Positions 20,305-41,966 of a stretch of 64,000 nucleotides of DNA are shown here, piece after piece. Within the stretch, counting starts at the first letter, position 1. Each line of letters starts with the position of its first letter. The DNA lies in the NCBI GenBank assembly GCA_018829465.1, contig JAHJTN010000019.1:248001-312000 (forward strand). Reading direction: 5' to 3'. The DNA is from Bacteroidota bacterium (GTDB lineage: Bacteria > Bacteroidota > Bacteroidia > Flavobacteriales > Flavobacteriaceae). The notes beneath the pieces are model-generated. The model made no database searches and was not told the DNA's origin. It saw only the letters and a program-made list of their open reading frames with translations. The position numbers and the translations under genes were made by a program.

Positions 20305-21912
20305 TTATAAAATATAATGCGTGTTCAAGAAATTAGAGGTTTGTTTGTCCAACAATTCATTTAAGATTTCTTTGTTCAACGGATTGTCTTTAGCAGCCAC
20401 CAGGGTTCGTATAGAAAACGAACGCAGGGCGTCGTTCACGCTCAGGGTACTCACCGCCGAGTCTTTTCTACCCACAAACGGATATACATCCGGTCCGCGT
20501 TGGCATTGGCTGTTGATGTTGACACGACAAACCTGATTGACCAGCGGATCTATCAATTGTGCCAAAATTTCAGAATTGGTACTAAACAAGCTCACCTGCT
20601 GCCCGTAGTTTGACTCCGATACAGCATTTATGGGCTCTTCTATGTCTTTAAAAGGTATGATGGGCACCACAGGGCCAAACTGTTCTTCTTGGTAGATCTT
20701 CATATCCTTGTGCACCGGATATAAAATCGCAGGAAAATAGAAGGTTTCATCTTCCCAACCGCCATCCTCGTTAATGACTTTGGCACCTTTGGCTTCGGCA
20801 TCTGTCACTAATGATCGCAGGTATTCTACTTTTCCGGGTTCAGGCAATGGCGTCAGTGCTACACCCTCTTCCCAAGGCAAACCACCTTTGAGTTGGTTCA
20901 CCTTTTCTACAAACTTCTTGTTAAAGGCATCCACCACCGCCTCGTGTACAAACAAGAGTTTCAATGCGGTACAACGCTGTCCGTTGAAAGACAAACTGCC
21001 CAGCACACATTCGCTCACCGCCAAATCCAAATCGGCATCAGGCATTACTATGGCCGGATTTTTAGCCTCCAAGCCCAACACCAAGCGCAAGCGATTTTGC
21101 TTCGGATGCAAAGTTTGCAACGCATTGGCAGCCGTGCTCGTCCCAATCAAAGCCAACACATCTACATCACCCGTTTTCATAATTGGGGTAGAAACGACTC
21201 TTCCACGTCCGTACAATATGTTTACAACCCCTTTCGGAAACGCTTCCTTAAAAGCTTCCAGCAAGGGAGACATCAGTAAAATACCGTGTTTGGCAGGCTT
21301 AAAAATAGCCGTGTTGCCCATGATCAAGGCCGGTATCAAAAGGCAAAAAGTTTCGTTGAGCGGATAGTTATACGGCCCCATACAAAGCACCACGCCCAGG
21401 GGTCCGCGGCGAATTTGTGCATATACACCTTCCGTCAGTAAAATGCGAGCCGAACTCCGGTCTATCTCTTTGTACTCTTCAATAGTGTCATAAATATACT
21501 GTATGGTGCGGTCAAATTCTTTGCGCGAATCACCAAGGGTTTTACCGATTTCCCACATCAACAAATTGACTACTTCTTCGCGCTTGGTTTTCATAATTTC
21601 TACAAACTTCAGCAGGCAATCTATCCGGTCTTTCACCTGCATAGTCGGCCACAAACCGCGCCCCAAATTATAAGCCGCTTTAGCTTTTTCCAAAGCTTCC
21701 AAGGCTTCTTTTTCGCTCATATCGGGTACGCTGCCCAAAAGTTTTTTAACGCGTTTTCCGTTTTCTTCTACAAAAATCGGCGACACAATCTGCGTCATTT
21801 TGCCCGTCCAAGGTCGCAATTCTCCATCTATCAAATAATGGCTTTGTACGATAGGCGTTTTTATATCAAAGGCTTCGGGAATCTGCTGGTCCCTAAAAAT
21901 CTGTTTTTTCAT
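20305..21912 (-). CDS. NADP-dependent glyceraldehyde-3-phosphate dehydrogenase-like aldehyde dehydrogenase
   Basis: 535 residues, ALDH superfamily. Motifs: [11 protein letters not shown] (cofactor-binding/active-site loop), [34 protein letters not shown] with the general-base Glu, and [11 protein letters not shown] with the catalytic Cys. The layout and length fit the GapN group, which oxidises glyceraldehyde-3-phosphate directly to 3-phosphoglycerate with NADP, bypassing ATP formation but giving NADPH. Another aldehyde cannot be excluded. It has its own terminator and a long structured leader region (21936-22088). Confidence 0.8.
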
Positions 21913-21935: not shown

Positions 21936-22088
21936 GTAGCTATTCCTGCTGTCCGTTTCAAGCTTTTCTGTGCCTTGCTCTTTTTTTTAAACGCATTTCA
22001 AAAAGAGTTTCCGCCGGTCACTTTTTTGAAACGCAAAAAAAAGGCAAGCCATAATAAAAGGCTTTCCACTGCCATCAGGGCTATTTTT
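21936..22088 (-). ncRNA. Candidate structured RNA upstream of the GapN gene
   Basis: Read on the minus strand, the region starts AAATAGCCCTGATGGCAG and ends GGACAGCAGGAATAGCTA; TAGC/GCTA and CCTG/CAGG can pair as a closing stem. Inside, CTTGCCTTTTTTTT pairs with AAAAAAAAGAGCAAG, and GCGTTTCAAAAA with TTTTTGAAATGC, giving one long nested hairpin around a GGCGGAAAC loop. From memory, elements beginning TAGCCCTGAT..CCTTTTAT and ending GCAGGA..AGCT recur between genes in Flavobacteriia. Riboswitch, leader or 3'-UTR function is undecided. The rest of the 456-bp gap holds only the palindrome at 22248. Confidence 0.45.
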
Positions 22089-22247
22089 TGTTAGGTCCAA
22101 AGATAATCGTTTCTGTGCGATTTGTCTTTTAAAACAAACTCTAAACCGCCACAATTTTGTTAAAAAACATAAACTCTAAACAGCTAAAATCATAGATGGT
22201 GTGGTTTTAATAATGCAGGTTATTGGTATAAATCACCCATTCCGGGC

Positions 22248-22280
22248 AGACCTCACAGGTTTTTAAAACCTGCGAGGTCT
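22248..22280. repeat. Palindrome GACCTCACAGG type, downstream of ilvA
   Basis: AGACCTCACAGGTTTT and AAAACCTGCGAGGTCT form a hairpin with one G-T mismatch, 89 bp after the ilvA stop codon. Same family as the element at 821 and the arrays at 35290 and 41735. It may terminate the ilv operon transcript, though no long T-run follows. Confidence 0.75.
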
Positions 22281-22368: not shown

Positions 22369-23646
22369 TCAAATCAAGAGTTGAAACAAATCCGGTTTTT
22401 CGTTCAGGTATTCTCCAAAGAAATTGAGTGCCTTCATCCGAGACACCAGCGGTTCAAAATCAGCCTTATGTTTGATTTCAACACCCACCAAAGCCGGACC
22501 GATTTCACGGTTGTGCTTCTTGGTATATTCAAAATGTGTAATATCGTCATTCGGCCCTAAAACCTCATCTACAAATTCTCTCAAAGCACCAGCACGCTGT
22601 GGGAATCGAATGATAAAATAGTGCTTCAACCCGGCATACAACAAAGCGCGCTCGCGGATTTCCTCTGTACGGGTGATGTCGCTGTTGCCGCCACTCACCA
22701 CACACACTACATTTTTTCCTTTAATCTCCTCTTTCAAAAAAGACATGGCAGCTATAGACATGGCACCCGCCGGCTCTACAACCATCGCACTTTTGTTATA
22801 AAGCGACAATATGGTTTGGCAGATTTTGCCTTCGGGCAACACGATCATTTTGTGTAGGTTTTGCTTACAAATGGCAAAATTCCTATCGCCCACCCGTTTG
22901 ACTGATGCGCCATCAACAAATTTATCTATTTGGGCTAAGGTGGTGTTCTTACCTTTGTCCAAAGAAGTTTTCATGGAGGGTGCGCCTTCTGGCTCCACTC
23001 CTATAATCGTTGTGTTGGGCGACTTTTGCCTGAAAACTTCAGACACTCCGGCGGCCAAGCCCCCACCACCTATGGGCAGAATCAGGTAATCTATGGGCAC
23101 TGTTGCTTGGTTGATGATTTCCAATCCCACAGTGGCTTGTCCTTCAATAATTTTTTCATCGTCAAAAGGATGCACATAAACTTTATTTTCAACTTCACAA
23201 AAATGGTGGGCCAATTTGGAGGCATCGTCATAAGTATCGCCTTCCAACACTATTTTTACAGCGTCTTTGCCGAACATTTTCACTTGTTGAATTTTTTGCT
23301 TAGGCGTGGTTGCCGGCATGTATATGTGGCCCTGAATCCCCAGCTTATAGCAAGAGTATGCCACACCTTGCGCATGGTTTCCTGCACTCGCACAGACCAC
23401 ACCTCTGCTTTGCTCCTCTTTGTTTAATGAACAAATTTTATTGTACGCGCCTCTAATTTTATAGGAACGAACCACTTGCAAATCTTCGCGCTTGAGCAGG
23501 ATATTGGCATCGAATTTTTCTGACAAAAAGAAATTGTGCATCAAAGGAGTTTCTTGCGAAACTCCTTTTAGCACTTGGGCAGCTTGTTCCACATCCCCAA
23601 GATCGGGAAAATAATCTGTCTGCTTTTGTTTAACTAAAAATTTCAA
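22369..23646 (-). CDS. ilvA: Threonine ammonia-lyase (threonine deaminase)
   Basis: 425 residues. PLP-binding lysine in VRSYKIRGAYNKI (about 61), ASAGNHAQGVAYS, phosphate-binding GGGGLAAG, then a single C-terminal ACT-like regulatory region (FIIRFPQRAGALREFVDEVL). Converts threonine to 2-oxobutanoate, the first isoleucine-specific step. The start is TTG at 23646 overlapping the ilvC stop as TTGA; no ATG is available nearby, which implies translational coupling. Last gene of the ilv operon. The shorter regulatory part than in E. coli IlvA is normal for this group. Confidence 0.93.
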   Translation of the reverse strand: MKFLVKQKQTDYFPDLGDVEQAAQVLKGVSQETPLMHNFFLSEKFDANILLKREDLQVVRSYKIRGAYNKICSLNKEEQSRGVVCASAGNHAQGVAYSCYKLGIQGHIYMPATTPKQKIQQVKMFGKDAVKIVLEGDTYDDASKLAHHFCEVENKVYVHPFDDEKIIEGQATVGLEIINQATVPIDYLILPIGGGGLAAGVSEVFRQKSPNTTIIGVEPEGAPSMKTSLDKGKNTTLAQIDKFVDGASVKRVGDRNFAICKQNLHKMIVLPEGKICQTILSLYNKSAMVVEPAGAMSIAAMSFLKEEIKGKNVVCVVSGGNSDITRTEEIRERALLYAGLKHYFIIRFPQRAGALREFVDEVLGPNDDITHFEYTKKHNREIGPALVGVEIKHKADFEPLVSRMKALNFFGEYLNEKPDLFQLLI

Positions 23647-35289: not shown

Positions 35290-35421
35290 GACCTCACAGG
35301 TTTTAAAAACCTGTGAGGTCTACCCCGTAAAATAATCTCAATCTAAGCAGTTTTAGAAACCTGTGAGGTCTACCCCGTAAAATAATCTCAATCTAAGCAG
35401 TTTTAAAAACCTGTGAGGTCT
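35290..35421. repeat. 50-bp tandem repeat array, short copy (left of efflux cassette)
   Basis: Opens with the palindrome GACCTCACAGGTTTT/AAAAACCTGTGAGGTC, then two full 50-bp units of the form TTTTAAAAACCTGTGAGGTC + TACCCCGTAAAATAATCTCA + ATCTAAGCAG and a partial third ending GAGGTCTATTGCATTTTAG. Flanks (AAAAACAAG before, TATTGCATTTTAG after) are the same as in the longer array at 41735. The rest of the 477-bp gap (35084-35560) shows nothing else except a TACTTTTG box at 35549 just before the next start. Confidence 0.9.
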
Positions 35422-41734: not shown

Positions 41735-41966
41735 GACCTCACAGGTTTTAGAAACCTGTGAGGTCTACCCTGTAAAATAATCTCAATCTAAGCAGTTTTA
41801 GAAACCTGTGAGGTCTACCCCGTAAAATAATCTCAATCTAAGCAGTTTTAAAAACCTGTGAGGTCTACCCCGTAAAATAATCTCAATCTAAGCAGTTTTA
41901 AAAACCTGTGAGGTCTACCCCGTAAAATAATCTCAATCTAAGCAGTTTTAGAAACCTGTGAGGTCT
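41735..41966. repeat. 50-bp tandem repeat array, long copy (right of efflux cassette)
   Basis: Four complete 50-bp units starting at 41746, 41796, 41846 and 41896 plus a partial fifth at 41946, opened by GACCTCACAGG and closed by GAGGTCTATTGCATTTTAG, as in the short array at 35290. Units are nearly identical (TTTTAGAAAC/TTTTAAAAAC, one CCCTG for CCCCG), so it is a recently amplified tandem repeat. It fills the 312-bp gap after the adaptor gene; the half-palindrome CCTACAGGTTTTTG at 41709 is a worn extra piece. Confidence 0.92.

Follow-up and report, generated by a model that had tools for sequence, protein, structure and literature searches.

A long-arm copy of the structured element Flavo-1 between ilvA and a GapN-like gene, probably one of the interspersed palindromic repeats of Flavobacteriales

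A full-length Flavo-1 match upstream of a GapN-like gene

The window analyzed here, a 64-kb stretch of a Flavobacteriaceae contig, carries on its minus strand ilvA, encoding threonine ammonia-lyase (positions 22369 to 23646; NCBIfam, 631 bits against a cut-off of 421), and downstream, in the same direction, a gene for a GapN-like aldehyde dehydrogenase (20305 to 21912). The name GapN is that of the original prediction, and no NCBIfam model attains its own cut-off for this dehydrogenase. Between the two genes, the minus strand of positions 21938 to 22086 matches the Rfam family Flavo-1 (RF01705) with 55.5 bits against a gathering score of 42 (cmscan). The match spans positions 1 to 76 of the 76-position model, both ends included, and Flavo-1 is the sole family above its cut-off in the window. 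The Rfam scan that the original prediction had proposed as a check thus returned a match over the entire model and above the curated cut-off, and its impression that the ends were familiar from other flavobacterial intergenic regions is borne out. Flavo-1 is a previously catalogued, unexplained structured element of Bacteroidetes; in the excerpts consulted, Weinberg et al. (2010) describe it as probably RNA and not cis-regulatory (PMC2864571).

Folded as RNA, the minus strand of the element reaches -45.9 kcal/mol (z = -2.69; 2 of 200 shuffles as good), with a similar departure when the flanks are included (z = -2.72; 0 of 200 shuffles as good) and a z of -4.95 when it is folded as DNA (0 of 200 shuffles as good). 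The departure from shuffled sequence is therefore moderate as RNA and larger as DNA. Since the plus strand folds nearly as well (-42.2 kcal/mol, z = -3.63), the fold by itself picks no strand. From base to tip, the structure comprises closing AGC/GCU and CCUG/CAGG pairs (5' side, AGC CCUG, at 22076 to 22082 on the minus strand, with partners at 21938 to 21940 and 21946 to 21949), internal loops, and a long arm in which a stem pairing a U-run with an A-run is followed by an inner stem with GUGACCGGCGGAAAC at its tip. It reproduces the nested hairpin that had been drawn on paper from the sequence, with its TAGC/GCTA and CCTG/CAGG closing stems and its U8/A8 arm. The copy in the window is thus like RF01705 in sequence and structure, but differs in its apical arm of about 80 nt (21972 to 22051, minus strand), which stands where the Rfam model has a short variable loop; in the alignment, this variable part measures 84 nt compared to 11 in the model. 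At the tip of the arm lies the motif GTGACCGGCGGAAA (22008 to 22021, minus strand; pattern GYGACCnnCGGAAR), which pattern scans also detect in long Flavo-1 copies of the genome labeled G035.

The 3' end of the element is 25 nt away from the downstream ATG at 21912, close to the 24 bp first reported. Eleven nucleotides upstream of the element, TATCTTTG (22098 to 22105, minus strand) resembles the flavobacterial -7 box, given as TAnnTTTG in the consulted part of a study of Flavobacterium psychrophilum (PMC9723704). Boxes of this kind are common in the window (89 observed versus 72 expected by chance), so that this pattern match is weak promoter evidence, and it is no more than plausible that Flavo-1 forms the 5' leader of the GapN-like transcript. 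The likeliest outcome at this locus would be a hairpin in that leader with no specific sensor.

The same intergenic region holds a separate 31-bp palindrome at 22249 to 22279. Its sequence, GACCTCACAGGTTTTTAAAACCTGTGAGGTC, recurs in the window with at most three mismatches at 823 to 853, 35290 to 35320, and 41735 to 41765, where none would be expected by chance, and it is another intergenic repeat of this genome.

Two architectures with covarying pairs

Thirty-six Flavo-1 loci were sampled from the window's genome and its relatives, and 31 of them entered two alignments, one of 21 type 2 copies (A1) and one of 10 type 1 copies (A2); loci with long or unusual arms (L003, L025, L028, L031, and L033) were left out. 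Type 2 copies have an outer stem, GCGTT/AACGC, followed by the core and a side hairpin, and in many of these relatives the outer stem and side hairpin fall outside the 76-position Rfam match, while type 1 copies have the ends TAGCCC ... GCT. In the core, short stems alternate with purine-rich internal loops, whose bases are strictly conserved in A1. With its type 1 ends, the window copy scores 48.2 bits with our own type 1 model (R1) against 27.1 with the type 2 model (R2).

The pairing of Flavo-1 is well supported. Paired positions match in 90.5% of cells in A1, compared to 35 to 50% when the partner is slid, and A1 has 101 double changes where shuffles have 26. In a larger type 1 alignment (A6; 68 matches, 64 distinct), 99.0% of cells pair and 201 double changes occur, counts that are biased toward pairing because A6 was fitted to the structure of the Rfam model. 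In A1, A6, and a G035 set (A3), none of 500 shuffles reached the covariation score. Covariation among copies, named beforehand as a check, is therefore strong, and the earlier suggestion of a widespread structured RNA holds in that the element is widespread, structured, and covarying, with conserved ends; whether RNA is the form in which it acts is weighed next and in the interpretation below.

It could be argued that Flavo-1 acts as DNA, in the manner of REP elements, with a hairpin or cruciform of which one strand is recognized by a DNA-binding or strand-transfer protein and the RNA fold a by-product. The DNA fold of the window copy does depart more strongly from shuffled sequence than its RNA fold does (z of -4.95 versus -2.69), and G-U pairs are few in A6 (11 of 1171 paired cells, 0.9%) and in the mixed type 2 alignment A1 (6 of 475, 1.3%). 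Taken as proof of a DNA hairpin, the lack of wobble pairs looked strong on the first two alignments and on A6, but it was undone by two G035 sets (A3, 45 of 864, 5.2%; A5, 22 of 474, 4.6%) and by RNA controls from the same clade. In these controls, G-U pairs account for 68 of 925 cells in SRP RNA (7.4%, mostly at three positions; 29 of 30 loci, with L189 omitted) and for 10 of 300 in the TPP riboswitch (3.3%; first 21 of 30 loci), a range within which the G035 counts fall. No DNA-recognizing protein was found, and we regard an action of Flavo-1 as DNA as quite improbable.

The tip of the long arm

The pattern GYGACCnnCGGAAR occurs at 8 of 213 loci, three of them being the window itself and the other five lying in G035, two in one and the same stretch and three elsewhere. 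The pattern GNGACCNNCGGAAR matches 17 of 328 loci, three of them again the window and the rest from G035 (13 distinct), although nine of these loci had been fetched for their likeness to a long copy and only the three from a 394-kb sample of G035 were free of this selection. Twelve of the 13 distinct loci lie inside Flavo-1 matches, and the remaining one (L181) lies outside the scanned set. Eight long copies from a second genome, G060, contain no exact match to the tip motif, yet align with the same region. The cap singled out in the original prediction is thus a recurrent feature of long Flavo-1 copies, in two genera here. Several long copies of G035 and G060 (L215, L226, L227, L232, and L233) are no more than about 1.3 kb away from a contig end, which would suit a position beside large repeats such as rRNA operons.

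Dispersal, orientation, and neighboring genes

Flavo-1 is matched at E <= 0.001 in 32 of 60 genomes, the window's own included, and above the cut-off in 28 of 60. The number of matches per genome ranges from 0 to at least 65, the highest being in G035, where 65 candidates were scored and all of them matched; in 394 kb of G035, a sample picked around known matches, 36 copies were found with the type 2 model. In the genus of G040, 39 of 40 genomes hold between 2 and 53 matches and one holds none. A search with one copy from G072 returned matches at many unrelated places in 19 genomes, 80 to 97% identical and similarly bounded, many of them 90 to 97% identical over about 75 to 90 nt; a second query likewise returned many scattered matches that start at its TAGC and end near one point. 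Many dispersed intergenic copies per genome are thus found in G035 and in the genus of G040, whereas the window's genome has merely seven matches to the Rfam model at E <= 1, of which four exceed the cut-off, and BLAST with the element finds itself as the only full-length match in that genome.

Copies lie in both orientations relative to their neighbors. Across 100 copies (39 type 1, 26 type 2, and 35 from G035), all four arrangements of neighboring genes occur; the first two sets are the best-scoring copies per genome, with orthologues included. In G035, 29 of the 36 copies could be placed, with 11 between convergent genes, 2 between divergent genes, and 16 between tandem genes (11 antisense, 5 sense), where the intergenic DNA of the three classes amounts to 5.3, 9.8, and 26.9 kb, respectively (about 42 kb in total). 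In two genera (G019 and G008), an antisense Flavo-1 lies between sufD and sufS of the suf operon, 8 nt before sufS; copies elsewhere adjoin unrelated genes. Rfam files RF01705 as "Gene; sRNA," a label for which we found no support here and against which the mixed orientation argues.

These neighborhoods bear on the tie to a central-metabolism gene that had been suggested for the window copy. A protein search yielded 80 GapN-like loci from other named genomes (one, L050, with just 82 nt upstream; L149 and L150, whose contigs are of equal length to those of L048 and L049 and apparently identical with them, were not added to the count), and Flavo-1 was present at none of the 80 when their flanks were examined with the type 1 and type 2 models at E <= 0.1. 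The two species of the window's own genus are among these loci, and the only match was the window's own locus. At the two nearest GapN-like loci (86% protein identity), the order ilvA-gapN is kept and the element is absent; the intergenic DNA there fails to align with that of the window copy, so that an insertion point is unreadable at these loci. A leader specific to gapN is therefore rejected, as the element is missing from the 80 other GapN-like loci and its other copies adjoin unrelated genes, and the window offers no case for a GapN-specific switch.

Site-by-site occupancy

At the site represented by locus L239, Flavo-1 is present in 6 of 19 genomes (G072, G078, G092, G073, G053, and, with extra DNA, G040), a remnant of its 3' half is found in G098, and 8 genomes lack the element while keeping both flanks on one locus; the other 4 are unclassed. 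The orthologous copies differ by a pair-keeping double change, from AGCGG/AGCGG in G072 to AGTGG/AACGG in G092 and G073, with a wobble state in G078. Double changes of this kind resemble the outcome of selection on individual copies, or of gene conversion, more than that of decaying dead inserts, and to that extent they count against a repeat.

A second site is the gap after purM (NCBIfam, 411 bits against a cut-off of 236), which precedes a gene read by eye as purN and contains Flavo-1 in 7 of 30 genomes. The element is present in G082 and missing in G062, which is 91% identical to it over the query, and is present again in G061 and G099, both 79% identical to G082. Between G082 and G061, a T-A pair has changed to C-G, and G099 has a different tip arm, a pattern as compatible with exchange among copies or across species as with selection. 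Occupied and empty sites between near relatives are thus seen both at L239 and in the purM gap, with exact insertion points not drawable.

The 23 purM gaps without Flavo-1 include 21 short ones, whose fold z scores range from -1.23 to -5.60 and reach -2 or lower in 16 (60 shuffles each). At least four kinds of inverted repeat can be told apart by eye in the gaps without Flavo-1. The one kind that was tested, which looks unrelated to Flavo-1 by eye and lies at several places in one stretch around the pur genes of G064 (L323, G064:C5:122683-124509), gives 7 to 25 matches in each of 8 genomes, a figure that overstates the number of places since a palindromic place can appear on both strands, and it is therefore a dispersed repeat as well; in the purM gap of G040, it lies beside Flavo-1. 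Among the seven gaps with Flavo-1, fold z scores include 0.08 in G082, -0.85 in G040, and -1.51 in G084. Two of the seven (0.08 and -0.85) thus fold no better than shuffled sequence, which counts against a simple rule that this gap holds a hairpin, and against the repeat reading. In five genomes (L294, L296, L298, L306, and L308), the Flavo-1 of the purM gap has a palindrome of the kind AGCCTTGTCAAGGTTTNAAACCTTGACAAGGCT next to it, whereas G066 and G067 (L317 and L319) have this palindrome and an additional short open frame but no Flavo-1.

An interspersed repeat or a regulatory RNA

ERIC and REP/BIME elements are interspersed palindromic repeats of bacteria that occupy intergenic and intercistronic DNA, and hairpins between cistrons can protect mRNA ends and space cistrons. 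A copy number that varies between 0 and at least 65, the sharing of similar copies by unrelated loci, both orientations, and patchy occupancy of orthologous sites are the behavior of an interspersed repeat, and we consider it probable that Flavo-1 is such an ERIC/REP-like element of Flavobacteriales, with the window holding one long-arm copy between ilvA and the GapN-like gene. The likeness to ERIC and REP/BIME is one of habit (many imperfect palindromes in intergenic and intercistronic DNA, patchy occupancy, and a bias toward gene ends), whereas Flavo-1 differs in sequence and clade, has a multi-loop core and a free tip arm, and is not tracked by a Y1 (RAYT-type) transposase. Positions shared by different genera, such as the sufD-sufS gap of G019 and G008, indicate that many copies are old, which counts against the repeat reading, as does the fact that no insertion event was seen at base resolution among the sites compared.

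The main competitor is a regulatory RNA, with a conserved core whose purine-rich internal loops are part of what a protein binds and with the copies forming a regulon of sRNAs or leaders, of which the window copy would be the leader of the GapN-like mRNA. The strong covariation, which 0 of 500 shuffles matched, would agree with this, as would the strictly conserved internal-loop bases, the pair-keeping changes at the L239 site, and the placement of the window copy shortly before a start codon and downstream of a TAnnTTTG-like box; in the consulted part of the F. psychrophilum study, several Flavo-1 matches also coincide with 5' transcribed regions (PMC9723704). On the same showing, however, Guerin et al. 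(2021) report F. psychrophilum matches in sense and antisense alike, many of them outside transcribed regions (PMC9723704), and this mixed orientation, together with neighboring genes that are not constant and a copy number that varies from none to at least 65, makes a regulatory RNA unlikely in our view. The comparison with a riboswitch or other mRNA leader runs the same way: the window copy is a covarying structure shortly before a start codon, but Flavo-1 has no constant gene class, and its copies are antisense, intercistronic, or between convergent genes.

As a dispersed repeat, Flavo-1 would be a unit of about 75 to 180 nt, with a fixed core of stems and internal loops and a freely varying tip arm, that spreads and comes to rest at the least harmful places: downstream of stop codons, between convergent genes, and in operon gaps. 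Where transcribed, its hairpin might serve as an ordinary, exchangeable RNA structure that protects mRNA ends or spaces cistrons, so that any effect on mRNA would be of this general kind. The best reading is that Flavo-1 ends up in transcripts and is no dedicated sRNA or riboswitch. We further suggest, tentatively and as a possibility that falls somewhat short of even, that Flavo-1 is no sRNA family at all. It would instead be one among several hairpin repeats that stock the gene gaps of Flavobacteriales interchangeably, so that an operon gap filled by Flavo-1 in one species is filled by palindromic repeats unrelated to it in another, and selection or gene conversion would preserve the pairing of single copies.

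Among the titles and abstracts found, mostly from open literature and with supplements excluded, none calls Flavo-1 a dispersed repeat, and a 2022 review, in the part consulted, places it among the 20 bacterial sRNAs of highest prevalence (PMC9029176). Should Flavo-1 be a dispersed hairpin repeat, prevalence figures of this kind and automatic annotations would be misleading, and it would be better to ask by what route the unit spreads and for what reason a hairpin is so common in the operon gaps of this order. The purM gap, with its different hairpins in different species, makes the latter question directly testable.

How the unit might spread

From its distribution, we infer that Flavo-1 has spread as a unit and was mobile in the past. 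No target-site duplication, in the form of a consistent direct repeat at the ends, was found among 91 copies (38 of type 1, 53 of type 2); a MITE or other DNA transposon derivative would show one. A RAYT/Y1 transposase as a general carrier was rejected, as four genomes with 13 to 23 Flavo-1 matches (G005, G007, G019, and G037) gave no match to a Y1 transposase. No carrying enzyme was identified among the genomes compared, and all three of these negative results count against the repeat reading. A reading as an integron attC site was rejected by eye on the order of the outer GTT/AAC boxes under the attC rules. A viral collection gave no match, a result that says little about carriage by phages since the search used a single exact 23-letter pattern. 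At one place in G035 (L138:5340-8489), two copies in the same direction enclose a stretch of about 3.1 kb, with three open frames, that the syntenic place in G060 lacks. This might be a composite transposon, but the extra G035 DNA reaches about 35 nt past the Flavo-1 pair, and G060 keeps no copy.
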